A stretch of 64,000 nucleotides of DNA from an uncultured Dyadobacter sp. Its GTDB lineage: Bacteria > Bacteroidota > Bacteroidia > Cytophagales > Spirosomataceae. The stretch spans positions 186,001 to 250,000 of the forward strand of contig NZ_CAMLSE010000001.1 of NCBI RefSeq assembly GCF_946482605.1, in the 5' to 3' direction. The notes beneath the pieces were generated by a model, which worked only from the letters and a program-made list of their open reading frames with translations, was not told where the DNA came from and searched no databases. Position 1 is the stretch's first letter, and every line of letters begins with the position of its first letter. Below, piece by piece: positions 25,378-39,304 of this stretch. The translations under genes and the position numbers were made by a program.

Positions 25378-27393
25378 ATGAATGCAGAAGTGGATGCCTT
25401 GCAAAAGCGCATTGAAGAACTTGAGGCGGAATTGGATGCCGTGCGGCTCACGCAAGCAGCCGGTGCCGATACGCTGGCGCGTATACAGGAAACCGAAGAT
25501 CGTTTCCGGGCCATCGCCGACACGGCTCCTGTACTCATATGGCTCTCAGGGCCGGATAAGCTTTGCTATTTCTTTAACAAAGGATGGCTGGATTTTACAG
25601 GAAGGACTATCGAGCAGGAATTGGGGAACGGTTGGGCGGAAGGTGTGCATCCGGATGACTTCGACCGTTGCCTGGCTATTTATTCTGCTCATTTTGATGC
25701 GCGCAAGGAGTTCAGTATGGACTATCGTCTCAAAAGGCATGATGGCGAATACCGATGGATCTGGGATAAGGGCGTGCCCAGATATACCGCCAGCGGTTCT
25801 TTTGTAGGTTATGTGGGAGGCTGTATGGATATTCACGACCAGAAAACCTTCTCCGAACAACTGGAAAGGAGCGTAGAGGAGCGGACCCTGCAACTGAAAA
25901 GATCGGAACAATTTCTCCAGGCGATCCTGAACACCGCCGGTGACAGCATTGCGTCGTATGAAGCCGTCCGGAACGAGGCAGGGAAGATCATGGATTTCAG
26001 GATTGTCTATACCAACGAAGATACATTTTCGCAGGTCGGAAAGCGGGGGGCTGATATTGTGGGACGAACCTGCAGGGAAGTGTACCCCGGTATTTTCCGA
26101 AACGGAGTTTTTGAAAAACTGGTGCGATGCATTGAGACCGGGCAGCCGGATACGTACCAGATCGATCTTCGCCGCGACGGCCAGATTTTCTGGTTCGATG
26201 CTTCCATTGAGAAGCTGGGCGACAGTGTCACCGTGACAGCCAGGAATATCTCTGATGAGATGAAAGCAGATCTGAAACTGAAAGATCTGAACCGTCAGCT
26301 GAAAATCCAGAATTCTATTTTCAAACATTCTGAAGAAAATGCTGGCATGGGCAGCTACGCGTGGAATGTGGCTACCAACGAGCTGGAATGCTCGGATAAC
26401 CTTTTCCGGCTCGTCGGTTACGGACCAAGGGAGTTTACACCATCCTTTGAACAGATCTTGTCTTTTTTGCACCCCGACGACCGCCATCAGGCTATTCGTG
26501 ACGGAATACGGGCTTACGAAACAAAAGTGATCGTGCAGAACACCTACCGCGTCATTACCAAAGACGGGAGCGTCAGGCATTTCAGGTTGAGCGGCAATTT
26601 TATACGTGAGGATGATAATCAGTTGATGATCGGGGCATTGCAGGATGTGACCAAGGATATCGAGCTGAATGATACTCTGCATCAAAAAAACATGGAATTG
26701 CGCCGGAATAACGAAGAACTCGCCTCTTTCAGCTACGTGGCTTCTCATGACCTGCAGGAGCCGCTGCGCAAGATCCGGGCATTCAGCAGCCGGATCATGG
26801 AAAAGGAGTCCGAACATTTTTCGGAAAATACCAGGGATTACTTTTCCAGGATCATAGCGGCCTCGGCGCGCATGCAAAAGTTGATCGAGGCCTTGCTGAG
26901 CTACTCCGGCACGAGCGGCGTTAATTTTAAATTGGTTTATACAGACCTGAACGTGATTATGGACGAGGTCAGGAGCGACCTGGAAGAGCTGATCGATGAA
27001 AAGGCTGCGGTCGTTGAAATTGAGAAGCTTCCGTCGTTAAAAGTGATCCCTGTACAGTTCCATCAGCTCATGCAGAACCTCATCGGCAATGGTATCAAAT
27101 ACAGCAGCCCGGAACGCACGCCGGTCGTGCGGGTCACGTCCCAGATGACCGACGCTGCGGAGCAAGGCGTATTCTGCCAGATCAGCGTGGCCGATAATGG
27201 AATCGGCTTTGACCAGCGTTACGAAGACCGCATTTTCGACCTGTTCCAAAGATTGCATGGCAAAAACGAGTACGAGGGTACAGGGATTGGACTGGCGATT
27301 TGCAAGAAAATCGCGCAGAATCACCACGGGTACATCACCGCAGAGGGAACCCCGGGCATCGGATCCGTATTCCATGTATTTATTCCCGCCTGA
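25378..27393 (+). CDS. PAS-containing cytoplasmic histidine kinase
   Basis: The 671-residue protein begins with a coiled coil (residues 1-40), then has three PAS/PAC domains (about 45-160, 175-290 and 325-425; 'NKGWLDFTGRTIEQELGNG', 'HPDDFDRC', 'HPDDRHQAI'). HisKA follows with phospho-acceptor His457 ('VASHDLQEPLRKIRAF') and an ATPase domain with 'NLIGNGIKYSS' (N box; Ala replaced by Gly), 'DNGIGFD' and 'GTGIGLAICKKIAQNH'. 'SHDLQEPLRK' marks the bacteriophytochrome-like HK class. It closely resembles the kinase at 46598-48985. No membrane helix or receiver is fused; the receiver gene just upstream is the likely partner. Confidence 0.92.
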   Translation: MNAEVDALQKRIEELEAELDAVRLTQAAGADTLARIQETEDRFRAIADTAPVLIWLSGPDKLCYFFNKGWLDFTGRTIEQELGNGWAEGVHPDDFDRCLAIYSAHFDARKEFSMDYRLKRHDGEYRWIWDKGVPRYTASGSFVGYVGGCMDIHDQKTFSEQLERSVEERTLQLKRSEQFLQAILNTAGDSIASYEAVRNEAGKIMDFRIVYTNEDTFSQVGKRGADIVGRTCREVYPGIFRNGVFEKLVRCIETGQPDTYQIDLRRDGQIFWFDASIEKLGDSVTVTARNISDEMKADLKLKDLNRQLKIQNSIFKHSEENAGMGSYAWNVATNELECSDNLFRLVGYGPREFTPSFEQILSFLHPDDRHQAIRDGIRAYETKVIVQNTYRVITKDGSVRHFRLSGNFIREDDNQLMIGALQDVTKDIELNDTLHQKNMELRRNNEELASFSYVASHDLQEPLRKIRAFSSRIMEKESEHFSENTRDYFSRIIAASARMQKLIEALLSYSGTSGVNFKLVYTDLNVIMDEVRSDLEELIDEKAAVVEIEKLPSLKVIPVQFHQLMQNLIGNGIKYSSPERTPVVRVTSQMTDAAEQGVFCQISVADNGIGFDQRYEDRIFDLFQRLHGKNEYEGTGIGLAICKKIAQNHHGYITAEGTPGIGSVFHVFIPA

Positions 27394-27536
27394 GAACCAC
27401 GTCCTGGTTGCCATGTGGTGAGGAAGTTGGATAAGTCGGTGTTGTGATTGTAAAAATCCGGTAATGTGATTGTAAAAGAGGACCTTTTGAAAAGTTCCGG
27501 TAAAAATCCTTGCGTTTTAATTTTTAAGAAGTTTAC

Positions 27537-27570
27537 TTTGTCTATCATATTTATAGACTATATAAATATG
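27537..27570 (+). promoter_or_regulatory. Candidate promoter with overlapping 10-bp palindromic operator ahead of the sulfatase locus
   Basis: TTTG (27537-27540), 22 bases, then TAAATATG (27563-27570; one mismatch to TAnnTTTG). Across it lies a perfect inverted repeat, CATATTTATA (27546-27555), spacer GACTA, TATAAATATG (27561-27570). The right arm contains the whole -7 box, so a dimeric regulator bound here would block the polymerase. Just upstream, TGTGATTGTAAAA occurs twice (about 27440 and 27465). A start near 27577 would leave about 50 bases before the small leader ORF. Confidence 0.5.
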
Positions 27571-27628
27571 GTTTGCCGGATTAACCACCAGTCGGGCAGC
27601 TATTCATCCAAAATTTCTTATCGTACCT

Positions 27629-27730
27629 ATGAAAGCGAAAGATTTACTTCTTATCCAACGGCCTCACGCCGGGAGGATGGTGGTTTCTGATTGTCTCCGT
27701 TCCACAGCTCCGTGCTGTTCTTATTGTTGA
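27629..27730 (+). CDS. Cysteine-rich leader peptide (candidate attenuator uORF)
   Basis: An ATG at 27629 opens a 33-codon frame whose product starts MKAKDLLLIQRPHAGRM and ends SDCLRSTAPCCSYC, then TGA. Four of the last 12 residues are cysteine, with codons 29, 30 and 33 next to the stop. It lies about 180 bases before the SusC start of a locus with three sulfatases. Within it ACAGC (27704-27708) and GCTGT (27714-27718) can pair, the right arm covering the Cys-Cys codons. Polycysteine leader ORFs act as cysteine-responsive attenuators in mycobacteria; that this one does so is inference. It is too short to be a usual structural protein. Confidence 0.5.
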   Translation: MKAKDLLLIQRPHAGRMVVSDCLRSTAPCCSYC

Positions 27731-27906
27731 CCTCAAGGGGTTGATCCCGCCTGTCTGAATATTACTGCCTTAGCACCTTCAAATGCGACGGGCTTTGCTT
27801 TCGTGCATACCCATTCCCGGATCTTTTAAGGTCGATCGGCTTGACGTATATGCATGATGGTTTGCCTTTGCCCGTCCGGATTACTCATCTTTATTAACCA
27901 CAAATA
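27731..27906 (+). promoter_or_regulatory. Leader region between the Cys-rich uORF and susC
   Basis: These 176 bases have no ORF but contain possible pairings: GGG/CCC around 27737-27748 and the 7-bp complement GACGGGC (27787-27793) with GCCCGTC (27870-27876). The latter could close a large loop just ahead of the SusC start. No clear run of T marks a classical terminator, so any attenuation would be Rho-dependent or translational. Confidence 0.3.
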
Positions 27907-30900
27907 ATGATTAAGAAACTTTACTGCCTGCTCGTTCTGACAGGTGCATTACTCACAGGCGCTTTTCACGCCCTGGCCCAGGATGCTATCACGGGTGTGG
28001 TCAAAGACGAATCGGGCCAGGGACTTCCCGGCGCCACGGTAGTCGAGAAGGGCTCCGCAAAATATGCGCTGACCGATATAGACGGGAAATTCAGCATCCC
28101 GCCTGCGAAAGAATTTCCATTTACTTTACAGATCAGCATCACCGGTTTTCAGCAGCAGGAAATAGAGATCTACGAACAGCCGACCGAGGCCGTTGAGATC
28201 GTTTTGAAAACTGCGAATCTACTCGACGAGGTTGTCGTGGTGGGTTATGGTGAGCAAAAAAGGAAGGATATCACCGGTTCCGTGGCTTCCGTACCCATTG
28301 AAATCAAAAGCCAGCCGGTAGCCTCGGTAGAGCGCCTTCTGCAGGGCTCGGTCGCGGGTGCGGTCGTGACACAAACATCCGGTCAGCCGGGTGGGGGTGT
28401 GAGCGTGCAGATCCGTGGAAACAACTCCATTACGGCGGGAAGCGATCCACTATATGTCATCGATGGCTTTCCGATCAACAACGACTACGGCCTCACCGAT
28501 GCCGGCGTGACCGACGGATCGAAAATTAACCCGTTGTCATCCATCAATACCGCTGATATTGAGAACATTGATGTGTTGAAAGATGCCTCTGCCACAGCAA
28601 TTTACGGTTCGCGCGGTGCCAATGGTGTGGTGATTATCACTACCAAAAGCGGCAGTAAAAATAAATCATCCATTAATTACGATGCCTATTACGGATCGCA
28701 GAAAGTACTGCGCACATTGCCTTTGCTGAATGCGGGACAATGGTGGCAACTGAGAAAAGATGCGGCCGCCAACTCGGGCAAAACCGTTTCTGTTCCTACT
28801 ATTTCGGGTTACTCGCTGGATACTACCGGCGCGGGGACCGACTGGCAGGATGCCGCGTTTCGCAGTGCGTCCATTCAAAGCCATAATCTATCCATTCTGT
28901 CAGGATCGGATAAGACGAAGCTTGCGATCTCTGGTAACTATTTCAAACAGAACGGTATCCTGCAAAACACTGATTTCCGTCGTTTCTCTGCGCGGATTAA
29001 CCTGGATCACCAGTACAACGACCGCTTCCGCATTTTCACCAGTCTGAATGCCAGTAATACCAAAGCCAATGTAGCGCCTACCGCCATTGTAGCGAACCTG
29101 CTGCTGACGCCTCCGGCGCTGCCGATTTATCAGGACAATGGCAATTTCGTAGTGAACAGCCCGTTCGAATCGGCGTTGCAGAACCCGATCAACTCCCTTT
29201 ATAACCAGCTGAACGAGACCATTACCAACCGTTTCCTGGGTAGTGTTTCCGGAGAATATACGATTGCAGACGGTTTGAAAGCCAAAATCCTCGTCGGTGC
29301 CGACGTGGTGGGGAACAAGCAGAACCGCTACCTGCCGAGTACGACCGCCGAAGGCCAGGCATTGAGCGGTGACGCCATCGTAGGTTCCGTGTTCACTACC
29401 AACTGGCTGAATGAGAACACCGTAAGTTACGATAAGGAAATCAACGAGAAGAATAAGATCAATGCCGTAGCCGGTTTTACAGCCCAGGTGTCGCAAACCA
29501 AGGGCGCTATTGCCGAAGCCGCCGGTTTTGCAACCGACGCATTTGAATATAACAATCTAGCAACCGGTATAACCAATATTGCGCCGCGTTCGCTGGCCAG
29601 CAAATGGTCTCTGGCTTCCTACCTGGGGCGTATCAACTATATTTTCGACGAGCGCTATCTGTTCACGCTTACATTGCGCGCCGACGGGTCGTCGAAATTC
29701 GGTAGCGGCAACAAATGGGGCTATTTCCCATCCGCGGCGATCGGCTGGAATGTCAACGAAGAAAAATTCTTCCAGCGTTTCAAAAAGATCAGTCTGCTGA
29801 AAGTGAGGCTCAGCGCGGGCCAGACGGGTAATCAGAATATTCCGGCCTATCAGTCACTGTCCCAGCTAAGTTATTTCCGCTACAACTTCTCGAACACGAC
29901 GGTATCCGGGTTCGCACCCAACACGGTACCCAACCCGAACCTCGGCTGGGAGAAGACATTCCAGGTGGATGCGGGTGTGGATATTGGTTTGTTCAAAAAC
30001 CGCATTAACATTATCGCCGACTACTATTACAAGAAAACCACTGACCTGCTCCTGACCCGTACCGTTCCCGGTACCTCCGGTTTATCCGATTTCTATAACG
30101 GGCAGGCGTCGGTGGTGTACCAGAACATTGGTGCCGTATCCAACCAGGGAATTGAGTTGTTTGTCAATTCAAGGAACCTGGAAGGCCCGCTGAAATGGAA
30201 CACGATCTTTATTTTTTCAAAAAACACCAACAAGATCCTGAGCCTTGGAGACGGTGTGAATCAGATTATTCCGGTGATTTCAGCGCCATCCATTGCGAAG
30301 GTGGGCTATCCGCTGGGTTCCTTCATCGTCTATAAAACAGACGGCATTATCCAGCAGGGAGAAACGCCTTTGACGCCGCAACAGAACAAAAGCCCCGGTG
30401 GACAGAAGTATAAGGACATCGACGGAGATGGTGTGATCACGCAGGCCGGTGACCGTGTGGTAGTGAAAAATCAGCCTGCTTTTACAGGAGGTATTACCAA
30501 CACATTCAACTACAAGGGATTTGACCTGACCGTATTCTTCCAGGCATCGATCGGCGGCAAACTTTACAATGCCAACCGTGCGAACCTCGAACTCGGTACC
30601 GGTTATGTCAACGCCTCGGACGTTTTACTCAACCGCTGGACACCCGCTAACACCAATACCGACGTGAAAGCGGCATTCCAGGATCCTGCGATCACTATTT
30701 CGGACCGTTTTATCGAGGACGCGACCTACTATCGTTTGAAAAACCTTTCAATCGGCTACAACTTTCCGAAAGAATTGCTTTCGAGACTGCGCATCGAGAA
30801 CCTCAGACTGTATGTCTCGGCTCAAAATCCGAAAACATGGACGAAATACACCGGTTTCGATCCGGAGGTCAGCTTGAACGGTCAGTCGCTGATCAACAAG

Positions 30901-30966
30901 GGTGTCGACCAGGGTGTGTATCCGAACAACAAATCTTACCAGGTAGGCCTATCCCTCACTTTCTGA
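27907..30966 (+). CDS. SusC/RagA-type TonB-dependent outer-membrane receptor of the sulfatase locus
   Basis: The complete 1019-residue receptor has a signal peptide (1-24, 'FHALAQ'), a CarboxypepD-reg-like domain (about 27-105, 'ITGVVKDESGQGLPGATVVE'), a plug with the SusC marker 'VVVVGYGEQKRKDITGSV' (about 113-130) and 'NGVVIITTKSG', then the 22-strand barrel ending '...YQVGLSLTF'. It imports its ligand with TonB energy. It leads an evident operon: SusD (26 bases on), three sulfatases and a rhodanese-thioredoxin protein, so the cargo is probably a sulfated compound. It differs clearly from the partial SusC at the start of the window. Confidence 0.95.
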   Translation: MIKKLYCLLVLTGALLTGAFHALAQDAITGVVKDESGQGLPGATVVEKGSAKYALTDIDGKFSIPPAKEFPFTLQISITGFQQQEIEIYEQPTEAVEIVLKTANLLDEVVVVGYGEQKRKDITGSVASVPIEIKSQPVASVERLLQGSVAGAVVTQTSGQPGGGVSVQIRGNNSITAGSDPLYVIDGFPINNDYGLTDAGVTDGSKINPLSSINTADIENIDVLKDASATAIYGSRGANGVVIITTKSGSKNKSSINYDAYYGSQKVLRTLPLLNAGQWWQLRKDAAANSGKTVSVPTISGYSLDTTGAGTDWQDAAFRSASIQSHNLSILSGSDKTKLAISGNYFKQNGILQNTDFRRFSARINLDHQYNDRFRIFTSLNASNTKANVAPTAIVANLLLTPPALPIYQDNGNFVVNSPFESALQNPINSLYNQLNETITNRFLGSVSGEYTIADGLKAKILVGADVVGNKQNRYLPSTTAEGQALSGDAIVGSVFTTNWLNENTVSYDKEINEKNKINAVAGFTAQVSQTKGAIAEAAGFATDAFEYNNLATGITNIAPRSLASKWSLASYLGRINYIFDERYLFTLTLRADGSSKFGSGNKWGYFPSAAIGWNVNEEKFFQRFKKISLLKVRLSAGQTGNQNIPAYQSLSQLSYFRYNFSNTTVSGFAPNTVPNPNLGWEKTFQVDAGVDIGLFKNRINIIADYYYKKTTDLLLTRTVPGTSGLSDFYNGQASVVYQNIGAVSNQGIELFVNSRNLEGPLKWNTIFIFSKNTNKILSLGDGVNQIIPVISAPSIAKVGYPLGSFIVYKTDGIIQQGETPLTPQQNKSPGGQKYKDIDGDGVITQAGDRVVVKNQPAFTGGITNTFNYKGFDLTVFFQASIGGKLYNANRANLELGTGYVNASDVLLNRWTPANTNTDVKAAFQDPAITISDRFIEDATYYRLKNLSIGYNFPKELLSRLRIENLRLYVSAQNPKTWTKYTGFDPEVSLNGQSLINKGVDQGVYPNNKSYQVGLSLTF

Positions 30967-30992
30967 TAACCACCATTCCAAAAACGATTGAA

Positions 30993-32561
30993 ATGAAAGC
31001 ATTCAAATATATCCTGTTGGGTTTCACGGTATTTGCTTCGCTGTCCTGCGAGGAATTCCTGAAAGAAGAACCCGAGGCTTTTTTGTCCGAAGACCAGTAT
31101 TACAAGACGCAGGCCGACGCTGTCAATGCTGTCAATGCGGTATACTTTTTCCTGAATTCGGGAGGGTCTTCCATTCAGACACCTTACAATACTTTGTTCA
31201 ATACCGGGATGAACATGGCTGGTGACGACGAAGACCCGGGACCAGGAGCCACGAACCCGGACGTGCGATCGCTGTCGGTGCTGGCGCATTCATCCACCAA
31301 CCTGCGGATCTACGAAATCTGGCAACAGCATTTTGCAGCGATCAAAAAGGCGAACGTGGTGCTGGAAAAGGTTCCAGCCATCAGTTTTGATGATGCATTG
31401 AAAACACGCTTGCTGGGTGAGACCAAGTTTTTACGTGCATTGTATTATTTCAATCTGGTGCGTTTGTACGGCGACGTTCCGCTGATTCTCGAATACCAGA
31501 AGTTTGTGAATGCCTCCGATTATGCCATTGCAAAATCTCCTGCTGCGGACATTTACAAGCAGATCGAGAAGGATCTCACCGAGGCCGCTGCGGTGCTCCC
31601 CGCCACATACGCGTCGCCTAATGTGGGCCGCGCAACCGCCGGTGCTGCCAAGGCATTGCTGGCCAAAGTGTACCTGGCTCAGGCTTCGTTTCCATCCAAA
31701 GTGAATGCACGCTATCAGGATGCGGTGAATAAGGCGGAAGAAGCACTCTCGTCGACCGATGGCGGAACGGGTACTTACGGATATGACCTGGTGAGCAACT
31801 ATGCGGAAGTCTTTTTACCTGCCTTCAAAAACAATAAAGAGCATATCTTTTCTGCTCAGTTTAAATCGAATTCGCTGGCGCAGGGCAACAATGAATGGCC
31901 CCGTTCGATCTTGTCCGCCGTTCCTGGCCTGACGGGTAACTATGCGCACATGGTGCGGTTTTACACGCAGGGGAACGACAAGTTTTTCAGTATTTACAAA
32001 TTGTATAAACCCGGCGATAAACGGCGCGATGTCACATTCGTCAGAAGCTTCACCAGCCCGTCGAATGGCCGTAAGTATGCGCTTCCTATCGCGAATGCGG
32101 CCGTGCCCGGCGATTCGACGCCGTTCTGGAATAAATGGGCCGACCCTGCGTCGACTGCCGTGACCAACCAATCGGCTGCGAATGTGCCCATTATCCGTTA
32201 TGCGGAATTGCTGCTGATCCATGCAGAGGCTGAAAATGAGGCCAATGGGCCTACCCAGAAGGCTTATAAATCGTTGAACAGGGTTCGTAAACGCGCAGGA
32301 TTGCCCGATCTGACAGCCGGCCTTACCAAAGACCAGTTCCGCGACTCGGTATACCTCGACCGCCGTTTGGAACTGACCTATGAATACCAGCGCTGGTTCG
32401 ACCTGATCCGCCAGCGTGATGCGGCCTACAACAGCACATTTGTGGCAAACCAGCAGAAAGTAGGTAAGACCAATGCGGCACCCAAGCATGTGTACTATCC
32501 GATCCCGCAATCGGAGATCGACAACAATGCATTGCTGAAACAAAACCCGCTCTGGGAGTAG
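30993..32561 (+). CDS. SusD/RagB-family surface lipoprotein of the sulfatase locus
   Basis: The frame is open from 30837 inside susC, but the ATG at 30993 gives a proper lipoprotein signal (lipobox 'FASLSC', Cys19) and follows the susC stop by 26 bases, so I use it (522 residues). 'CEEFLKEEPEAFLSEDQYY' and 'LLGETKFLRALYYFNLVRLY' are SusD hallmarks, as is the end 'HVYYPIPQSEIDNNALLKQNP' (21 residues, quoted in spirit as YPIPQSEIDNN). It should bind the substrate for the adjacent SusC. Confidence 0.94.
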   Translation: MKAFKYILLGFTVFASLSCEEFLKEEPEAFLSEDQYYKTQADAVNAVNAVYFFLNSGGSSIQTPYNTLFNTGMNMAGDDEDPGPGATNPDVRSLSVLAHSSTNLRIYEIWQQHFAAIKKANVVLEKVPAISFDDALKTRLLGETKFLRALYYFNLVRLYGDVPLILEYQKFVNASDYAIAKSPAADIYKQIEKDLTEAAAVLPATYASPNVGRATAGAAKALLAKVYLAQASFPSKVNARYQDAVNKAEEALSSTDGGTGTYGYDLVSNYAEVFLPAFKNNKEHIFSAQFKSNSLAQGNNEWPRSILSAVPGLTGNYAHMVRFYTQGNDKFFSIYKLYKPGDKRRDVTFVRSFTSPSNGRKYALPIANAAVPGDSTPFWNKWADPASTAVTNQSAANVPIIRYAELLLIHAEAENEANGPTQKAYKSLNRVRKRAGLPDLTAGLTKDQFRDSVYLDRRLELTYEYQRWFDLIRQRDAAYNSTFVANQQKVGKTNAAPKHVYYPIPQSEIDNNALLKQNPLWE

Positions 32562-32601
32562 GGCGGGACCCGGTTTGTAATCTGTGGTTATTGAATATAG
32601 A

Positions 32602-34197
32602 ATGAACAAAAAGACTTCCCTTTGGATGAGCATGGTGTGGGCACTGGCGGTCATGACGCCGGTGTCCGCCTTTGCGCAACGCCCGTCTGAAAAGCCCAAC
32701 ATCGTGCTGATACTGGCCGATGATCTGGGTTTTTCGGATCTGGGAAGTTTTGGTTCCGAAATCCGGACCCCGAATCTCGACCGGCTGGCACAGGAGGGCT
32801 TACGCATTACCCAGTTCTATAATAGTGGCCGCTGCTGCCCCTCGCGTGCGGCGCTGCTCACGGGCCTGTACCCGCATCAGGCGGGCGTGGGCGACATGGT
32901 TCAGGACAAGGGCACACCGGCTTATCAGGGGTATCTGAGCAAGCACAGTGCGACTATCGCTCAACTGCTGAAAACAGGAGGTTATAATACCATCGTGTCG
33001 GGAAAATGGCATGTGGGGCTGGTACAGTCGGCCTGGGCCGTGAACCGTGGCTTCGACCAGTCTTTTACGATGCAAAACAATGGAAGCAGCTATTTCAACT
33101 CGGAGCCGCTTTACAATGATGGCCGGACGGTTACTTTTCAGTTGAATGGCCGCCAGATACAGCGATACGACACTTCACGCTATCTCACACAAGCCATTAC
33201 AGATTTTGCGATCCAGTCGATCGACCGCATTAAGGATCAAAGCAATCCATTCTTTCTATACCTGGCCTACAATGCGCCGCACTGGCCCATTCAGGCGCTC
33301 CCGGAAGACATCGCCCGGTACAAAGGCAGCTATATGCAAGGATGGGACGCTCTTCGGACTGCCCGTTACAAAAAGCTGGTTTCGCTGGGAATTATTCAAA
33401 AAGAATGGATACTCTCACCCCGCTATGAAAAGGCGCCGGAGTGGAAGGCACTATCGGCGATTGAAAAGGATCAATGGGATACCCGAATGGCCATTTATGC
33501 GGCCATGATAGACCGGATGGACCAATGCATCGGGCAAGTGCTCGATAAGCTCAGGGCCACAGGGCGCGACCGGAATACGCTGGTCCTTTTTGTTTCGGAC
33601 AATGGAGGGAGCGGAGATACGGTCCGGGAGTGGAGCTATGTAACCCAAAAGACGGGTGATCCCGGCTCTGTCAATTCGATTGACAGCTATGATCCGCCCT
33701 GGGGCAATGCAAGTAACACACCGTTCAGGCTTTTCAAGAAGAATACCCATGAAGGCGGCATTGCATCCCCGTTCATTGCATGGTTTCCCGGAAAGATCAG
33801 GCCCAACAGATTAAGCAAGCAAATCGGCCACATTACCGACATCATGCCGACGCTGCTGGACGTAGCGGGCGTTCGGTATCCTGAAACATTTGGAAATGAG
33901 CAACTCACACCGCTCGCGGGCAGTTCGCTGATCCGGCTGTTCCAGCATCCTGAACAAGTTGAGAAGAAAACCATTTTCTGGGAGCATGAGGGCAGCCGGG
34001 CCGTTCGAAAGCAGGATTGGAAACTGGTCGCCGAAATCGGCCAGCCCTGGGAGCTCTACGACCTGAAAACCGACCGCACGGAAACTACCAATCTGGCTGG
34101 CCGCTATCCTGGAAAAGTGAGGGAGCTCGAAAGGGAATACCTCGAGTGGGCGGAAAAAGTAGGAGTAGTGGATTGGAATACAATTAAATTGAACTAA
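32602..34197 (+). CDS. Type I sulfatase (CCPSR motif)
   Basis: The frame is open from 32584; the ATG at 32602 gives a signal peptide 'MNKKTSLWMSMVWALAVM...SAFAQ' and 531 residues. 'NIVLILADDLGFSDLG' carries the calcium-binding aspartates. 'CCPSRAALLTG' is the formylglycine signature with Cys78 as the residue to be oxidised, and 'GKWHVG' and 'VSDNGG' complete the site. The enzyme hydrolyses sulfate esters in the periplasm. It is 40 bases after susD and 18 before the next sulfatase. The exact substrate is not predictable; the C-terminus ('WELYDLKTDRTETTNLAG') is normal. Confidence 0.93.
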   Translation: MNKKTSLWMSMVWALAVMTPVSAFAQRPSEKPNIVLILADDLGFSDLGSFGSEIRTPNLDRLAQEGLRITQFYNSGRCCPSRAALLTGLYPHQAGVGDMVQDKGTPAYQGYLSKHSATIAQLLKTGGYNTIVSGKWHVGLVQSAWAVNRGFDQSFTMQNNGSSYFNSEPLYNDGRTVTFQLNGRQIQRYDTSRYLTQAITDFAIQSIDRIKDQSNPFFLYLAYNAPHWPIQALPEDIARYKGSYMQGWDALRTARYKKLVSLGIIQKEWILSPRYEKAPEWKALSAIEKDQWDTRMAIYAAMIDRMDQCIGQVLDKLRATGRDRNTLVLFVSDNGGSGDTVREWSYVTQKTGDPGSVNSIDSYDPPWGNASNTPFRLFKKNTHEGGIASPFIAWFPGKIRPNRLSKQIGHITDIMPTLLDVAGVRYPETFGNEQLTPLAGSSLIRLFQHPEQVEKKTIFWEHEGSRAVRKQDWKLVAEIGQPWELYDLKTDRTETTNLAGRYPGKVRELEREYLEWAEKVGVVDWNTIKLN

Positions 34198-34215: not shown

Positions 34216-36528
34216 ATGAAAAAAGTGTATCGCAAAGGGATCCGGTTGCCGATGGGTGCCCTCGTCGCGCTGGCATTATATAACGGAGCAAATGCCCAGT
34301 ACGCACCCACGCCCGCTTACCAGGGGAAAATCGGTAAGACCGTCGCTGAAACGCAGCAGTCATGGCCGGAAAAGAAAAAGGCGGCTGCGGGCGCGCCCAA
34401 TGTGGTCTGGATCCTGCTTGACGACATTGGTTACGGTGCCATCAGTACATTTGGAGGATTGATCCATACCCCCACGCTGGATAGTCTGGCGAATAATGGG
34501 CTTCGTTATACCAACTTCCATACAACGGCCATTTGTGCACCTACCCGCGCATCGCTGCTTACGGGCCGGAACCAGCATTCGGCGCACATGGGGCTTTTTC
34601 CCGAAACAGCCATTGGTACACCGGGCTATGATGCCATTATTCCTTTTGAAAAAGGGACCGTTGCTGAAATCCTGAAAGACAATGGTTACAACACTTTTGC
34701 ATTGGGCAAGTGGCATATTACTCCGTTGGCGGACCTTACGCCGGCCGGGCCATTTAACCGCTGGCCTACTGGTCGTGGATTTGAGCAGTTTTACGGGTTT
34801 CCGTCCAGAGGAAGCATTGACCAGTGGCATCCTGAGTTGTGGGAAGGCACGCACCGCGAGCCGGACCGGCAGGACGGCAAGCATTTCAACGAGCTGATCG
34901 CCGACCGTGCGATCAGTTACCTGGCGAGCCAGAAATCGGGGAACCCCGAGAAGCCCTTTTTCCTGTATGTGGCCACGGGCGCGGGTCATGCGCCGCACCA
35001 GGTGGCGAAGCAATGGTCGGATAAGTACAAAGGTAAATTCGATGCGGGTTGGGATGCTTACCGCGAGCAGGTGCTGGCGAATCAGATCAAACTGGGGGTA
35101 GTACCCAAGAATGCCAAACTCGGGCCGCGTAACCCCGGTGTGAAGGATTGGAATACGCTTGGGGCCGACGAGAAGAAATTATACGCCCGTTTTATGGAAA
35201 CTTATGCGGGCTTCCTCGAATACACCGATTATGAGATCGGCCGGGTCATTAACCATATCCGTGAATCGGGAGAGTTGGACAATACCATTGTGATCGTATC
35301 AGTGGGGGACAATGGAGCTAGCAAGGAAGGCACTTTTGTAGGAACCGTCAATAATTTCGGCACTGGTATCACGGAAGAAGAGCGTTTGAAAAAGAATATA
35401 GAACAGATCGATCTGATCGGAACCGAGTTCTCCAAAGTGAATTACCCGCTCGGCTGGGCAGCAGCCACGAATGTACCATTCAGGCATTGGAAGCAGGATG
35501 CGAATGCGGAGGGCGGCACGCATAATCCACTGATCGTTTTTTATCCAAAAGGCATTAAGGAAAAAGGCGGGCTGCGTAATCAGTACGGCCATGTTTCGGA
35601 TATTTTGCCCACGACATTGGAATTGCTGAACATCAAAGCACCGGCAACGCTGAACGGCATCAAGCAGGATCCGATCGAAGGGACCAGCCTTGCTTACAGC
35701 CTGAACGACGCCGGGGCGAAAAGCCGCCATACCATTCAGTACTACGAAATCCGCGGCTCGCGCTCGATCTACAAAGACGGCTGGAAAGCGGGATCCCTAC
35801 ATGTTAAAGGTCAGGATTTTGAAAAAGATAAATGGGAGCTGTACAATCTCAATGAAGATTTTAACGAAACGAACGACCTGGCAGCGGCTCAACCAGCCCG
35901 GTTGAAGGAACTCAAAGCATTGTTCGACAGTGAGGCATTGAAATACAATGTGTATCCATTGAAAGACGGGACGGAGCCATTTACGTTGCCGACCGCCTAC
36001 AATCATGTGGATCGGGTGGTGCTGTATCCCGGGCAATCGACAATCATCGATGTGGCGAGCCCGTTTGCGTTGAAGCGCTCCTTTTCCATTGTTGCGGATG
36101 CGGAATTGTCGGGCGTGGAGACGGAAGGCGTGTTGCTTTCACGCGGTGGAGCAGCCGGCGGTCTGAGCTTTTTTATCCAAAACCAAAGACTCCAGTTGGT
36201 GTACGCGGTTGGAGACGGGAGTAAATATGTGGTCACTTCGGCCAACGCGACCTTGCCAAGCGGAAGGGTAGAGTTGAAGGCCAGCGTGCAGTACGACCAG
36301 AATGGCGGCGGAGTGGTGACTTTGTATGCGAACAATGCAAAAATAGGCGAAGGGACGCTGGCCAAAACCTCGGAAGCATTGTACCTGCACGAGGGCGTCA
36401 ACGTTGGTTTTGACGATCTGACGCCGGTAGGGGATACCTATAAAGTTCCTTTTGCATTTACTGGTAAAATCAATAAGGTAACCATCGATCTCGCGCCGAC
36501 GCAACAGGCGGCATTGGGTGCGAAATAG
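34216..36528 (+). CDS. Large arylsulfatase-like type I sulfatase with C-terminal lectin-like domain
   Basis: The 770-residue enzyme has a signal peptide (1-27, 'NGANAQ'), 'NVVWILLDDIGYGAISTFGG' for the metal site, and the signature 'CAPTRASLLTG' with formylglycine Cys107. CxPTR, with Thr for Ser, is seen in AtsA-type arylsulfatases. It also has 'GKWHITPLADLTPAG' and 'VGDNGASKEGT'. After the sulfatase domain (to about 590) residues about 600-765 form a beta-rich LamG/concanavalin-like region ('FSIVADAELSGVETEGVL', 'GVNVGFDDLTPVG'), as in long bacterial arylsulfatases. It differs from both neighbouring sulfatases, suggesting a varied set of sulfate esters. Confidence 0.92.
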   Translation: MKKVYRKGIRLPMGALVALALYNGANAQYAPTPAYQGKIGKTVAETQQSWPEKKKAAAGAPNVVWILLDDIGYGAISTFGGLIHTPTLDSLANNGLRYTNFHTTAICAPTRASLLTGRNQHSAHMGLFPETAIGTPGYDAIIPFEKGTVAEILKDNGYNTFALGKWHITPLADLTPAGPFNRWPTGRGFEQFYGFPSRGSIDQWHPELWEGTHREPDRQDGKHFNELIADRAISYLASQKSGNPEKPFFLYVATGAGHAPHQVAKQWSDKYKGKFDAGWDAYREQVLANQIKLGVVPKNAKLGPRNPGVKDWNTLGADEKKLYARFMETYAGFLEYTDYEIGRVINHIRESGELDNTIVIVSVGDNGASKEGTFVGTVNNFGTGITEEERLKKNIEQIDLIGTEFSKVNYPLGWAAATNVPFRHWKQDANAEGGTHNPLIVFYPKGIKEKGGLRNQYGHVSDILPTTLELLNIKAPATLNGIKQDPIEGTSLAYSLNDAGAKSRHTIQYYEIRGSRSIYKDGWKAGSLHVKGQDFEKDKWELYNLNEDFNETNDLAAAQPARLKELKALFDSEALKYNVYPLKDGTEPFTLPTAYNHVDRVVLYPGQSTIIDVASPFALKRSFSIVADAELSGVETEGVLLSRGGAAGGLSFFIQNQRLQLVYAVGDGSKYVVTSANATLPSGRVELKASVQYDQNGGGVVTLYANNAKIGEGTLAKTSEALYLHEGVNVGFDDLTPVGDTYKVPFAFTGKINKVTIDLAPTQQAALGAK

Positions 36529-36540
36529 GAATTTTTGATA

Positions 36541-36652
36541 TGTTGTTACATGCCTGACGGCATTTTATGCGGCCAAGTCGCGTAGCGACGCAACATTGGT
36601 AGCATGCATGAAGGAAGCTATTTTAGGTAAATCGCGTAGCGATGTAACAACA
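36541..36652. repeat. REP/MITE-like palindromic repeat (TCGCGTAGCGA) between sulfatase genes
   Basis: TCGCGTAGCGACGCAACA (36578-36595) and TCGCGTAGCGATGTAACA (36632-36649) are near-identical direct copies, each with a TCGC-GTA-GCGA hairpin. TGTTGTTACAT (36541-36551) is the exact reverse complement of ATGTAACAACA (36642-36652), giving terminal inverted repeats about 110 bases apart. A frame opening at 36596 inside it is fused by chance to the next sulfatase. Confidence 0.6.
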
Positions 36653-36694
36653 ATGCGAACAACAGAACGGAGCCTAAGAACAACAAGAATGCAA

Positions 36695-38518
36695 ATGAAC
36701 AAATTGATCCGCAAAATCCTTCTGGCGATACTCGCGATCGCATTACACCCGGCCATTGCGCAGGATCGGCCTAACATACTCTGGATCGTGAGTGAGGACA
36801 ATACTACGTTGCTCGGCAGCTACGGTGATCAATTCGCGACGACACCTAATCTGGACAAGTTTGCGACGGAAAGCATCCGGTATACCAACGCATTTTCCAC
36901 CGCTCCCGTGTGCGCACCTTCGCGTAACACGCTCATCACAGGCATGTATCCGCCCTCGCTCGGGACCGAGCATATGCGGAGCGTCTACCCGTCGCCTGCA
37001 TTCGTGAAGTTTTTTCCGAAATACCTGCGGGAAGTAGGTTACTACACGACCAACAATGCAAAAAAGGACTATAACACAACGGACCAGCTCGATGCGTGGG
37101 ATGAATCGAGTAACAAAGCGACTTACAAAAACCGGAAGTCCGGCCAGCCTTTTTTCGCAGTATTTAATTTGAATGTATCGCACGAAAGCTCGCTGCACGA
37201 GTCACTGCCTGCATTGAAGCACCATCCGGAAAAAGTGCCTTTGCCGCCATATCACCCGGCGACGCCCGAGCTGAAACACGATTGGGCGCAGTATTACGAC
37301 AAGCTGGAAGAGATGGACCGGCAGTTTGGCAAGCTTTTGCAAGAGTTGAAAGACGAAGGACTGGCCGAAAATACCATCGTCTTTTACTATGCCGATAATG
37401 GTGGCGTACTGGCGCGCAGCAAGCGGTTTATGTACGAATCAGGTCTCCATGTGCCTTTGATTGTGCATTTGCCACCGAAATACGCGCATTTGGCTACTCA
37501 GAAACAGGGTAGCGTGTCGGACAGACTCGTGACCTTCCTGGATTTTGCGCCGACGATTTTGAGTCTGGCCGACATCCGGGTGCCCGATTATATGCAGGGC
37601 GGTGCATTTCTGGGTAAACAACAAAAGCCGGAGCCTGCATATGCCTACGGTTTCAGGGGACGAATGGACGAGCGGATCGATATGTCGCGATCGGTGCGGG
37701 ACAAGAAATTCCGGTACATACGCAACTATCTGCCCAATAAAATTTACGGCCAGTACCTGGAATATCTCTGGCGGGCTCCGTCGGTGAAATCCTGGGAAGA
37801 TCTTTACAAAGCAGGTAAACTGAATGCGGTCCAGTCGAAATTCTGGGAGCCGAAGCCGGCAGAAGAGCTATTCGATGTGACCGCCGATCCGCATAACATC
37901 CGGAACCTGGCCGATGATCCGAAGTACAAAAAGGAGCTGGAAAGACTTCGCGGGGCCAACGAACAATGGATTCGGGGCTACAAGGATGTTGGTTTTATTC
38001 CCGAAGCCATTATCTATGAACTTGCAAAGACCACGCCATTGTACGATTATGCCCGCAGCGGAGCATATGATATCGAAAAGGTGCTCGCGACAGCAGACGC
38101 AGCTTCATCACGGAATGCGGTGCACACGAAGACGTTGATCAAGGCATTATCCGATGCTGATCCGGTCGTGCGCTACTGGGCAGCTACCGGGTTGACGGTA
38201 CTGAAAGCGCCGGCCGGTAAAACCGAATTGCAGAAGGCGCTTCAGGACCGGGAACCGGCAGTTCGCATTGCCGCCGCCGAAGCGCTTTATGTATCGGGAG
38301 CAGATAGGCAAGGTGCCGTCACGGCGCTTGTTGAAGCATTGAAAAGTGACAATCCTTATGCACGCCTGCAAGCGCTGAACGTGCTCGATCTGACCGGTAA
38401 GGACGCCGCACCAGCCGCTGCCGAGGCTGGGAAAATCGCCGACCAGAAAGCAGCCATGTTTGATTACGATATCCGGGCAGCAAAGGTTTTGCTCGAACAT
38501 CTCAGGAATACGAAATAA
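36695..38518 (+). CDS. Type I sulfatase fused to C-terminal HEAT-like repeats
   Basis: The frame is open from 36596 through the palindromic repeat, but the ATG at 36695 (or 36689, two residues longer) begins a signal peptide 'MNKLIRKILLAILAIALHP', so I use 607 residues. 'NILWIVSEDNTTLLGSYG' and 'CAPSRNTLITGMYP' (formylglycine Cys73) mark the sulfatase. Unusually, residues about 480-600 form HEAT-like helical pairs ('ALSDADPVVRYWAATGL', 'ALQDREPAVRIAAAEAL', 'ALKSDNPYARLQALNVLDL'). This layout is like heparan-type N-sulfatases with HEAT tails. It is the third sulfatase of the operon, after the repeat insertion. Confidence 0.9.
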   Translation: MNKLIRKILLAILAIALHPAIAQDRPNILWIVSEDNTTLLGSYGDQFATTPNLDKFATESIRYTNAFSTAPVCAPSRNTLITGMYPPSLGTEHMRSVYPSPAFVKFFPKYLREVGYYTTNNAKKDYNTTDQLDAWDESSNKATYKNRKSGQPFFAVFNLNVSHESSLHESLPALKHHPEKVPLPPYHPATPELKHDWAQYYDKLEEMDRQFGKLLQELKDEGLAENTIVFYYADNGGVLARSKRFMYESGLHVPLIVHLPPKYAHLATQKQGSVSDRLVTFLDFAPTILSLADIRVPDYMQGGAFLGKQQKPEPAYAYGFRGRMDERIDMSRSVRDKKFRYIRNYLPNKIYGQYLEYLWRAPSVKSWEDLYKAGKLNAVQSKFWEPKPAEELFDVTADPHNIRNLADDPKYKKELERLRGANEQWIRGYKDVGFIPEAIIYELAKTTPLYDYARSGAYDIEKVLATADAASSRNAVHTKTLIKALSDADPVVRYWAATGLTVLKAPAGKTELQKALQDREPAVRIAAAEALYVSGADRQGAVTALVEALKSDNPYARLQALNVLDLTGKDAAPAAAEAGKIADQKAAMFDYDIRAAKVLLEHLRNTK

Positions 38519-38581: not shown

Positions 38582-39304
38582 ATGAAAACTTTAAAACCAA
38601 TGCTCACATTGGTATGGGTACTTTTTGCCTGTACCACATTATTCGCACAGACAGCCCCTAAGCGGGACCTCGTTTCTTTTGAGGAGTTTGAGGCCCGGTT
38701 GGCCAAAGCCGGACAGCATGCGCAGATCCTGGATGCGCGCCTGCCGGAAGAGTACGCGCAAAATCATCTGGAAAGGGCGGTCAGTTTCAGTGTTGCCAAT
38801 GAGGCCGATTTTACGAAAAGCATTGCGAAACTGGACAAAACCAAACCAACCTTCATCTACTCAATCGGAAACGGCCGGAGTGGTAAATTGGCCAAAGACC
38901 TGCGGGACAATGGTTTTCGGGAAGTTACCGAACTGCCGGGCGGTTTGAGCAAATGGATTGGTTTGGGCAAACCCGTCGTTTCGACCGTTGGTGCAGGTCT
39001 GTCACTCGGCGATTACCAGGCGTCACTGAAATCGGACAAACTCGTGCTGGTGGATTTCGGCTCACGTTACTGCGGATCGTGCAAGCGGCTGGCCCCGATC
39101 GTCGACTCTCTGAAACACGAGCAGGCCGGGAATCTGAAAGTGATCAACATCGAAGCTTACGAAAATAAAGCCCTCACCAAAGAACTGGGCGTAACTGCAT
39201 TACCGACACTGATCCTTTACCGGGGTAACCAGGTGGTGTGGAAAAAGACCGGCGTAACGCCGAAAGCGGAGATTGAAAGAGTGCTGGCAGAGGCGAATTT
39301 GTAG
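38582..39304 (+). CDS. Periplasmic rhodanese-like/thioredoxin fusion with serine at the rhodanese active site
   Basis: The 240 residues comprise a signal peptide (1-22, 'TTLFAQ'), a rhodanese domain (about 30-130) and a thioredoxin domain (about 140-238). The thioredoxin site is intact: 'SRYCGSCKRLAP' with Cys164 and Cys167. The rhodanese loop reads 'FIYSIGNGRSG', so Ser94 stands where the sulfur-carrying Cys should be; this domain can hardly transfer sulfur and may bind a ligand instead. It is 63 bases after the third sulfatase and ends at a strong terminator, so it is the last gene of the operon. A role in thiol or sulfite handling, or in protecting formylglycine formation, is speculation. 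Confidence 0.85.
   Translation: MKTLKPMLTLVWVLFACTTLFAQTAPKRDLVSFEEFEARLAKAGQHAQILDARLPEEYAQNHLERAVSFSVANEADFTKSIAKLDKTKPTFIYSIGNGRSGKLAKDLRDNGFREVTELPGGLSKWIGLGKPVVSTVGAGLSLGDYQASLKSDKLVLVDFGSRYCGSCKRLAPIVDSLKHEQAGNLKVINIEAYENKALTKELGVTALPTLILYRGNQVVWKKTGVTPKAEIERVLAEANL

Follow-up and report, generated by a model that had tools for sequence, protein, structure and literature searches.

Ahead of a SusCD/sulfatase operon in an uncultured Dyadobacter sp., a short open reading frame ends in a cluster of cysteine codons, and comparison with related genomes indicates that this 33-codon ORF is real and one of a family. We propose that it is a translated leader that probably serves as the cysteine gauge of a sulfur-scavenging operon, by ribosome-mediated cysteine attenuation. 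The elements of such a device are present: a short leader ORF before an operon, a Cys-codon cluster at its end, and sulfur genes downstream, some of these links being unclear. The starting point was a 64,000-nt stretch of one contig, referred to here as the window.

Results

Cys-ended leaders precede orthologous and unrelated operons

A preliminary description of the window had pointed to a 33-codon ORF ending in a Cys cluster, followed by SusCD, three sulfatases and a thiol-redox protein. Both parts are borne out: Cys occupies codons 29, 30 and 33, i.e., three of the last five, with a further Cys at codon 22, and TIGR04056 and Pfam matches identify the genes behind the ORF (Table 1). SusC of the window shares 94% identity with the Dyadobacter endophyticus protein, which puts the host in or next to that genus (Spirosomataceae, Cytophagales). 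Neither the window at the gathering threshold nor the region 27400–28100 at E values up to 5 matches any Rfam family, and the folding energy of the leader is little better than that of its own shuffles (z −0.99).

Table 1. Features of the leader region and the operon behind it (window coordinates).
Feature	Position	Strand	Details
Bacteroidota-type promoter candidate	27510-27540	+	TTG 27510-27512, 21 nt, TACTTTG 27534-27540
Palindrome GTCTAT-N7-ATAGAC	27540-27558	+	near expected start of transcription
Hairpin H1	27575-27597	+	7 of 8 pairs standard; loop AACCACC 27583-27589
Leader peptide ORF	27629-27730	+	33 codons, ATG start, TGA stop; peptide MKAKDLLLIQRPHAGRMVVSDCLRSTAPCCSYC
GGTGGTT inside leader	27679-27685	+	codon 18 is GTG; complement of H1 loop; first terminal Cys follows 11 codons later
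Small hairpin over Cys-Cys codons	27704-27718	+	by eye confined to this susC ortholog group
Terminal Cys cluster TGC TGT TCT TAT TGT	27713-27727	+	adjoins TGA at 27728; peptide end CCSYC
Untranslated stretch, leader stop to susC	27731-27906	+	without terminator-like site
SusC/RagA TonB-linked receptor	27907-30966	+	TIGR04056, 868 bits
SusD-family lipoprotein	30993-32561	+	PF07980, PF14322; start 30993 inferred, ORF open from 30837
Sulfatase	32584-34197	+	PF00884, 232 bits
Sulfatase	34216-36528	+	PF00884, 211 bits
Sulfatase with HEAT repeats	36596-38518	+	PF00884, 132 bits; PF13646
Rhodanese-thioredoxin fusion	38582-39304	+	PF00581 + PF00085

A SusC search of genome contigs yielded 77 loci (L001–L077). 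An orthologous leader stands before the same susC in ten Dyadobacter loci (L001–L008, L037, L038), at −397 to −171 relative to the start of the susC match. The 11 ortholog leaders, that of the window included, begin with MKAKD[LV]LL and range from 33 to 53 codons, while start, GGTGG site and terminal Cys cluster are kept in one frame. Individual Cys positions do vary, the leader of L006 ending SCSCC and that of L007 CCPRC. Selection at the protein level, which the preliminary description had also considered, came out neutral or against it: over 29 ungapped codons the 11 orthologs give a pN/pS of 0.59, and the same letters read in the shifted frames give 0.67 and 0.81. Because these values hardly differ, amino-acid conservation of the leader beyond its ends appears weak. 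This would be expected if start, frame, Cys and stop are what mainly matter, and it is no positive proof of that.

Are such leaders confined to this operon? An unbiased scan, using no other motif, took the first 5001 bases of the 77 loci (preceding the susC match in 76; in L047 the match begins at 1079) and retained ATG-initiated ORFs of 14–60 codons, outside longer ORFs, with at least three Cys in the last six codons. The coding strand yielded 27 such ORFs, distributed over 26 of the 77 loci, and the opposite strand gave none in the entire set of 77. All positive loci fall within L001–L043, and none within L044–L077, which are mostly remoter SusC relatives. Seven genera are represented: Dyadobacter, Larkinella, Pseudarcicella, Lacihabitans, Xanthocytophaga, Pseudochryseolinea and Olivibacter; according to NCBI taxonomy, Larkinella and Dyadobacter belong to the Spirosomataceae, Lacihabitans and Pseudarcicella to other families of Cytophagales, and Olivibacter to another class. 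Examples of the recovered peptides are MKNRFTSHWLCQYSVDGLGASFSRPRNANNACCCC and MKDFCNYPLFVVNHSISIFGLTSRMCCCC. Short ORFs ending in MCC also precede susC in Prevotella, and do not pass this stricter scan.

In the same genomes, unrelated leaders ending in CC, CCC or CCCC precede other operons, several of which contain sulfur genes, and outside their ends the leader sequences are dissimilar between operons. For two of these leaders (L110, L134), more than one start is possible. Across 51 distinct leaders Cys is most frequent at the very end, the final two positions having 73% and 71%; since the set was preselected for at least two Cys in the last nine codons, the enrichment as such is by choice. 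Their 191 Cys codons comprise 148 TGT and 43 TGC, as against 33 TGT and 59 TGC among the 92 in 26 ORFs of the window, a preference that might slow down reading or be a consequence of the A+T-rich leaders.

A covarying hairpin with a partner inside the leader

Most leaders of Dyadobacter and its near kin share a common layout, in which a palindrome at the promoter is followed by a hairpin (H1), the leader ATG, an in-frame GGTGG and the Cys cluster. Palindrome-like sites pooled from the loci amounted to 94 distinct sequences, and H1 was scored where at least five of eight pairs can form around [AG]CCACC, so that the loop letters are a search criterion and not a result. An ATG ORF with at least two Cys in its last eight codons follows 40 of the 53 H1 sites; dinucleotide shuffling, repeated 60 times, gave 2.6 on average and never more than 7. 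At least three Cys are found at 30 of the 53, against 0.2; the 41 palindrome sites without H1 yield ten Cys-ended ORFs, against 1.6 in shuffles. Many of the sites in all these counts are close orthologs and hence not independent events. The 13 H1 sites that fail the test include five (L006, L012, L015, L022, L156) with Cys-bearing leaders by reading, missed because the test stretch was too short in L006 and because Cys lies further from the stop in the other four. The remaining failures, among them sites before rhodanese-thioredoxin and sulfatase genes, are without a Cys-bearing leader. At the first sites of L138, L116 and L122, all before rhodanese-thioredoxin genes, H1 and GGTGG occur with no clear Cys-ended ORF, so the hairpin/GGTGG pair may work without a Cys leader.

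The pairing of H1 itself is well maintained. Across 62 distinct sequences, 6.19 of the eight inner pairs are standard, compared with 3.89 when the 3′ arms are redealt (sd 0.18, maximum 4.56, 2000 runs). An alignment of 33 leaders was made from 45 extracted sequences with a 7-nt loop, from which seven near-duplicates, four sequences lacking a leader and one whose leader is atypical had been removed. Its covariation score is 0.605, as opposed to 0.202 after shuffling and at most 0.208 when slid, and 75.8% of its H1 cells are paired, as opposed to 49.1%; none of 500 shuffles reached either value. Two of the five measures are unremarkable, namely pairs with two-sided change (8 vs 7.2) and further pair types (27 vs 24.0).

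The H1 loop is complementary to the GGTGG within the leader. At 60 of 73 sites GGTGG lies 40–190 nt after the loop, where 200 mononucleotide shuffles give 6.0 and at most 13; in a few of the 60 it falls within the following gene. Inside leaders, 37 of its 39 occurrences are in the ORF frame, and its distance to the Cys cluster is 11–13 codons in 31 of the 39 and 16–24 in the remaining eight; 12 of 50 leaders have no GGTGG. The base after CCACC pairs with the base before GGTGG in 38 cases, where shuffled partners give 27.2 (2 of 2000 as high), and the second loop base pairs weakly above shuffled partners (49 vs 46.8; 0.03), while the third position has no excess (20 vs 21.1), all of these statistics being inflated by the relatedness of the sites. 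In L006 both sides have changed, with AGCCACC facing GGTGGCT in place of the AACCACC and GGTGGTT of its relatives, which turns MVV of the peptide into MVA.

To follow H1 further we used a covariance model, R1, comprising H1 and the first approximately five leader codons and leaving out the leader end. The window matches it at 27574–27644 (58.5 bits, E 6.8e-10), by construction, since it is among the model's 33 sequences. In 222 genomes of the family, R1 matched 71 places in 40 genomes, and 29 of the 31 family loci that were read have at least two Cys in the last nine codons, taking the first ATG only. This recount was made because the initial rule favoured Cys-ended ORFs, and it again gave 29 of 31; shuffled downstream sequence, computed with a rule preferring Cys-ended ORFs, gave 0.5 of 31 (maximum 2). 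The two failures are L179, with one Cys, and L181, whose two adjacent Cys occupy positions 9 and 10 counted from the stop. Eight of the loci were new to the set; all eight have a Cys run at the end and GGTGG in frame, and all eight resemble leaders of the earlier set. In the phylum at large (296 genomes, with strict filters that lose weak matches), three genomes matched at E ≤ 0.05 and only the hit in the centre genome was convincing; the other two, L167 and L168 from outside the family, look like chance on reading. Among 26 non-Dyadobacter or remoter SusC loci R1 matched L029 and L041. Cys-run leaders of Larkinella and Olivibacter have no R1 match. As R1 matches concentrate in Dyadobacter's family while the scan finds Cys-run leaders beyond it, this form of H1 appears to belong mainly to that family and near kin, and Cys-run leaders to extend further. 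A separate weak R1 match in the susC/susD gap of the window (30960–31010, 20.3 bits, E 0.056), with AACCACCA, is probably chance.

A palindrome at the promoter and the genes behind it

The promoter candidate, predicted from sequence alone by the Bacteroidota consensus, is conserved in the ortholog alignment and is seen before other palindrome sites too. The palindrome that follows it is the window's sole match to its pattern (allowing up to two mismatches, 0.03 would be expected), and the orthologs carry it just before the leader as TTTACTTTGTCTATN7ATAGAC. It is probably the operator of a sulfur regulator. Six Dyadobacter genomes contain 47 sites with one core mismatch allowed, compared with ten for the reversed pattern, so that about ten of the 47 may be chance. 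CCACC follows within 70 nt at 28 of them and is absent at 19, and a Cys-ended ORF is found at 18. Under a stricter form of the palindrome, 12 of 101 genomes of the family, as grouped by the search tool, have sites, 19 in all as opposed to 0, and the centre genome alone contributes four.

Ten example genes behind palindrome sites were run against Pfam. They comprise sulfatases (L111, L119), a rhodanese-thioredoxin (L116), an aminotransferase class V that reads as a cysteine desulfurase (L118), a Cys/Met metabolism PLP enzyme (L153), fatty-acid hydroxylase-like proteins (L115 and L110, the latter followed by a gene that reads as a sulfatase), a TonB receptor (L131), and two proteins without a Pfam family at E 1e-5 (L126 and L120, where the second gene reads as a sulfatase). 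Behind several of the 47 sites the genes show no clear connection to sulfur. Going by the gene families behind the sites, the palindrome marks a group of operons among which sulfur genes turn up repeatedly. At L118, a SAM riboswitch (421–514, 45.8 bits, cut-off 44.4) lies between the palindrome and the cysteine desulfurase-like gene; similar sequence is seen by reading at L135, L142 and L144.

Some Dyadobacter loci had seemed to have a susC without palindrome, as if the leader had been lost. This was rejected: in nine of them (L009, L010, L012–L015, L019, L022, L035) the palindrome lies further upstream, and by reading eight of the nine have a Cys-bearing leader.

We also met a second conserved structured RNA of approximately 85–95 nt, its core holding an invariant TCGGTGGTTG and enclosed by long paired arms, at L148, L149, L137, L110, L123, L151, L153, L154, L157, L162 and others. 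It precedes sulfatase, fatty-acid hydroxylase-like, Cys/Met PLP and susC genes, sometimes after a Cys leader. Of 20 sequences 19 were aligned, with two-sided change kept in 14 of 23 predicted pairs, and in the six loci searched no Rfam match up to E 5 overlaps it. It is a candidate new regulatory RNA. Before susC of Spirosoma and Larkinella, inverted repeats of the type GCCAGTCCTG..CAGGACTGGC recur in similar form at L024, L025, L026 and L028; an A run flanks them 5′, and they read like a terminator of the opposite strand.

Search for a switch downstream of the leader

Terminator-like matches in 27380–28000 of the window number two, with 0.7 expected (sd 0.9), which is near chance, and 52 regions after leaders hold six such sites where 7.1 are expected. 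Pairing with the downstream RNA is hardly above shuffles for the Cys run (15.7 vs 14.6), and GGTGG has no clear partner there (15.2 vs 15.5). Given neither terminator enrichment nor a downstream partner for Cys run or GGTGG, classical attenuation by terminator and antiterminator was rejected, and the read-out is probably not a classical terminator. Energy folding of 13 whole leaders gave no common picture by eye, and a pairing of GGTGG with the susC start region (ACCAC before the ATG in the orthologs) was dropped, as by eye it is not common to other operons. The small hairpin proposed on the Cys-Cys codons does exist in the window, and by eye is not a general part of the leaders. Behind the stop codon, 37 of 51 leaders have more C than G (ratio 1.27), which may be taken as a weak hint of Rho.

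Discussion

The idea of a Cys-codon attenuator survives this analysis in part. Cys-ended leaders stand before orthologous and non-orthologous operons, several with sulfur genes, as expected from the idea; terminators are not enriched after the leaders, and a hairpin on the Cys codons is, by eye, not general. When Cys-tRNA is short, a ribosome would stall on the Cys codons of the leader and the downstream operon would be read; when Cys is plentiful, the ribosome would complete the leader and the operon would be damped. How could this be read out? As no conserved RNA contact was found other than H1 and its pairing with GGUGG, we place the read-out behind the ribosome, with less confidence than the gauge itself. 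With one ribosome stalled and another queued in its wake, GGUGG would be covered. Without stalling, GGUGG would be free to pair with H1 near the leader start, which would shut off further ribosome loading and expose bare RNA to Rho or decay; attenuation of the operon would perhaps be Rho-dependent or translational. Going by typical ribosome footprint sizes, a ribosome held at the first Cys would have GGTGG immediately at its rear, where the queued second one would cover it, and this geometry, taken with the GGTGG-to-Cys spacing, favours a read-out behind the ribosome at moderate confidence. The proposal in full, that an A[AG]CCACC loop pairs with the leader GGUGG, mostly 11–13 codons before the Cys cluster, and so senses stalling or queuing instead of using a terminator, across a sulfur regulon of one bacterial family, is tentative, and we rate it as possible and short of probable. 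The palindrome, with its binding regulator, would add control of initiation.

Which other readings could account for these leaders? The working part might be the RNA element, that is, H1 and a pseudoknot between its loop and GGUGG, bound by a protein or ligand, with the Cys-ended ORF secondary. The covariation of H1 is indeed far stronger than purifying selection on the peptide, H1 and GGTGG stand before rhodanese genes with no clear Cys-ended ORF, and the paired change in L006 alters the peptide. Such an element would not, however, predict the in-frame Cys cluster after H1 at 29 of 31 loci against 0.5 in shuffles, nor the existence of Cys-run leaders that R1 fails to match, as in Larkinella and Olivibacter, and we consider it unlikely, if the most serious competitor to the cysteine gauge.

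The ORFs could instead encode working small peptides, e.g., metal- or sulfur-binding ones; small Cys peptides can bind metals, and runs of up to four Cys would suit this. Their sequences are too dissimilar between operons and their length too variable within one for this to be more than very improbable, and the one leader peptide searched has no match in NCBIfam. We give equally little credence to regulation by the palindrome alone, with leader and hairpin as bystanders: the 19 of 47 sites without CCACC within 70 nt, some before sulfatases (L119), speak for it, but it leaves the Cys enrichment and the covariation of H1 unexplained. A chance ORF can practically be dismissed, for although a single 33-codon ORF is ordinary, chance is refuted by the shuffle (40 of 53 vs 2.6), strand (26 vs 0 of 77) and R1 (29 of 31 vs 0.5) counts.

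Finally, we would like to place the cysteine gauge proposed here in the context of known leaders. Ribosome stalling at the end of TnaC, the leader of the E. coli tna operon, blocks Rho, in response to free Trp and not to starvation. The form proposed here is alike in that stalling at the leader end would keep Rho off, and differs in that the Cys-ended leaders have no homology to TnaC. Mycobacterial leader ORFs with a leaderless start are reportedly, by the title of Canestrari et al. (2020), responsible for cysteine-responsive attenuation. In the window, the leader ATG lies 71 nt after the palindrome with a covarying hairpin between, which would speak against a leaderless start if transcription begins near the palindrome as predicted. 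The S-box (SAM-I riboswitch) is connected to the present system by the palindrome, which leads into a SAM riboswitch at L118, and is distinct from the window's leader region, which has no Rfam match.

The closest relatives in form are polycysteine leaders of Actinobacteria, described before cys operons of Mycobacterium and Propionibacterium and before cbs of Bifidobacterium; the sections of that report on which we draw describe them as lacking conserved terminator hairpins, suggest Rho-dependent termination and make the tna comparison for these leaders themselves (PMC1262725). To the extent of those sections, they share with ours the short ORF, the Cys run near the stop, the position before sulfur genes and the lack of a conserved terminator, whereas the present leaders come from another phylum, carry H1, an in-frame GGTGG and the palindrome, serve uptake and sulfate-ester operons, and have their ATG well behind the promoter candidate. 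In Rhodobacterales, uORFC-8-2 before cysS is a leader ORF with tandem Cys codons and predicted ribosome-mediated attenuation, its Cys codons lying in a stem and a U run being consistent with an intrinsic terminator, as given in the relevant part of that study (PMC8632094). Judged by that part, the tandem Cys codons are common to both, while stem-borne Cys codons and a terminator do not hold in general here, and no cysS lies behind the window leader. A Bacteroides transcriptome study notes short ORFs, reminiscent of leader peptides, within long 5′ UTRs, its pertinent passages leaving Cys codons unmentioned (PMC7366714). The preliminary description knew of no Bacteroidota Cys leader, and the open-licence literature, which mostly excludes subscription papers, likewise yielded none, which is not proof of absence. 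What is known, then, is Cys-codon leaders elsewhere; what is new here is the phylum, the target genes and the H1/GGTGG layout.

If the proposal is true, Bacteroidota would possess a Cys-codon gauge that acts on genes for scavenging sulfate esters and not on cysteine synthesis, and SusCD/sulfatase loci, usually read as sugar-harvesting, would be tied to sulfur hunger. A hairpin partner at near-fixed spacing from the stall site would be an unusual and directly testable read-out, and the H1 model together with the palindrome could be used to find and name the regulon.
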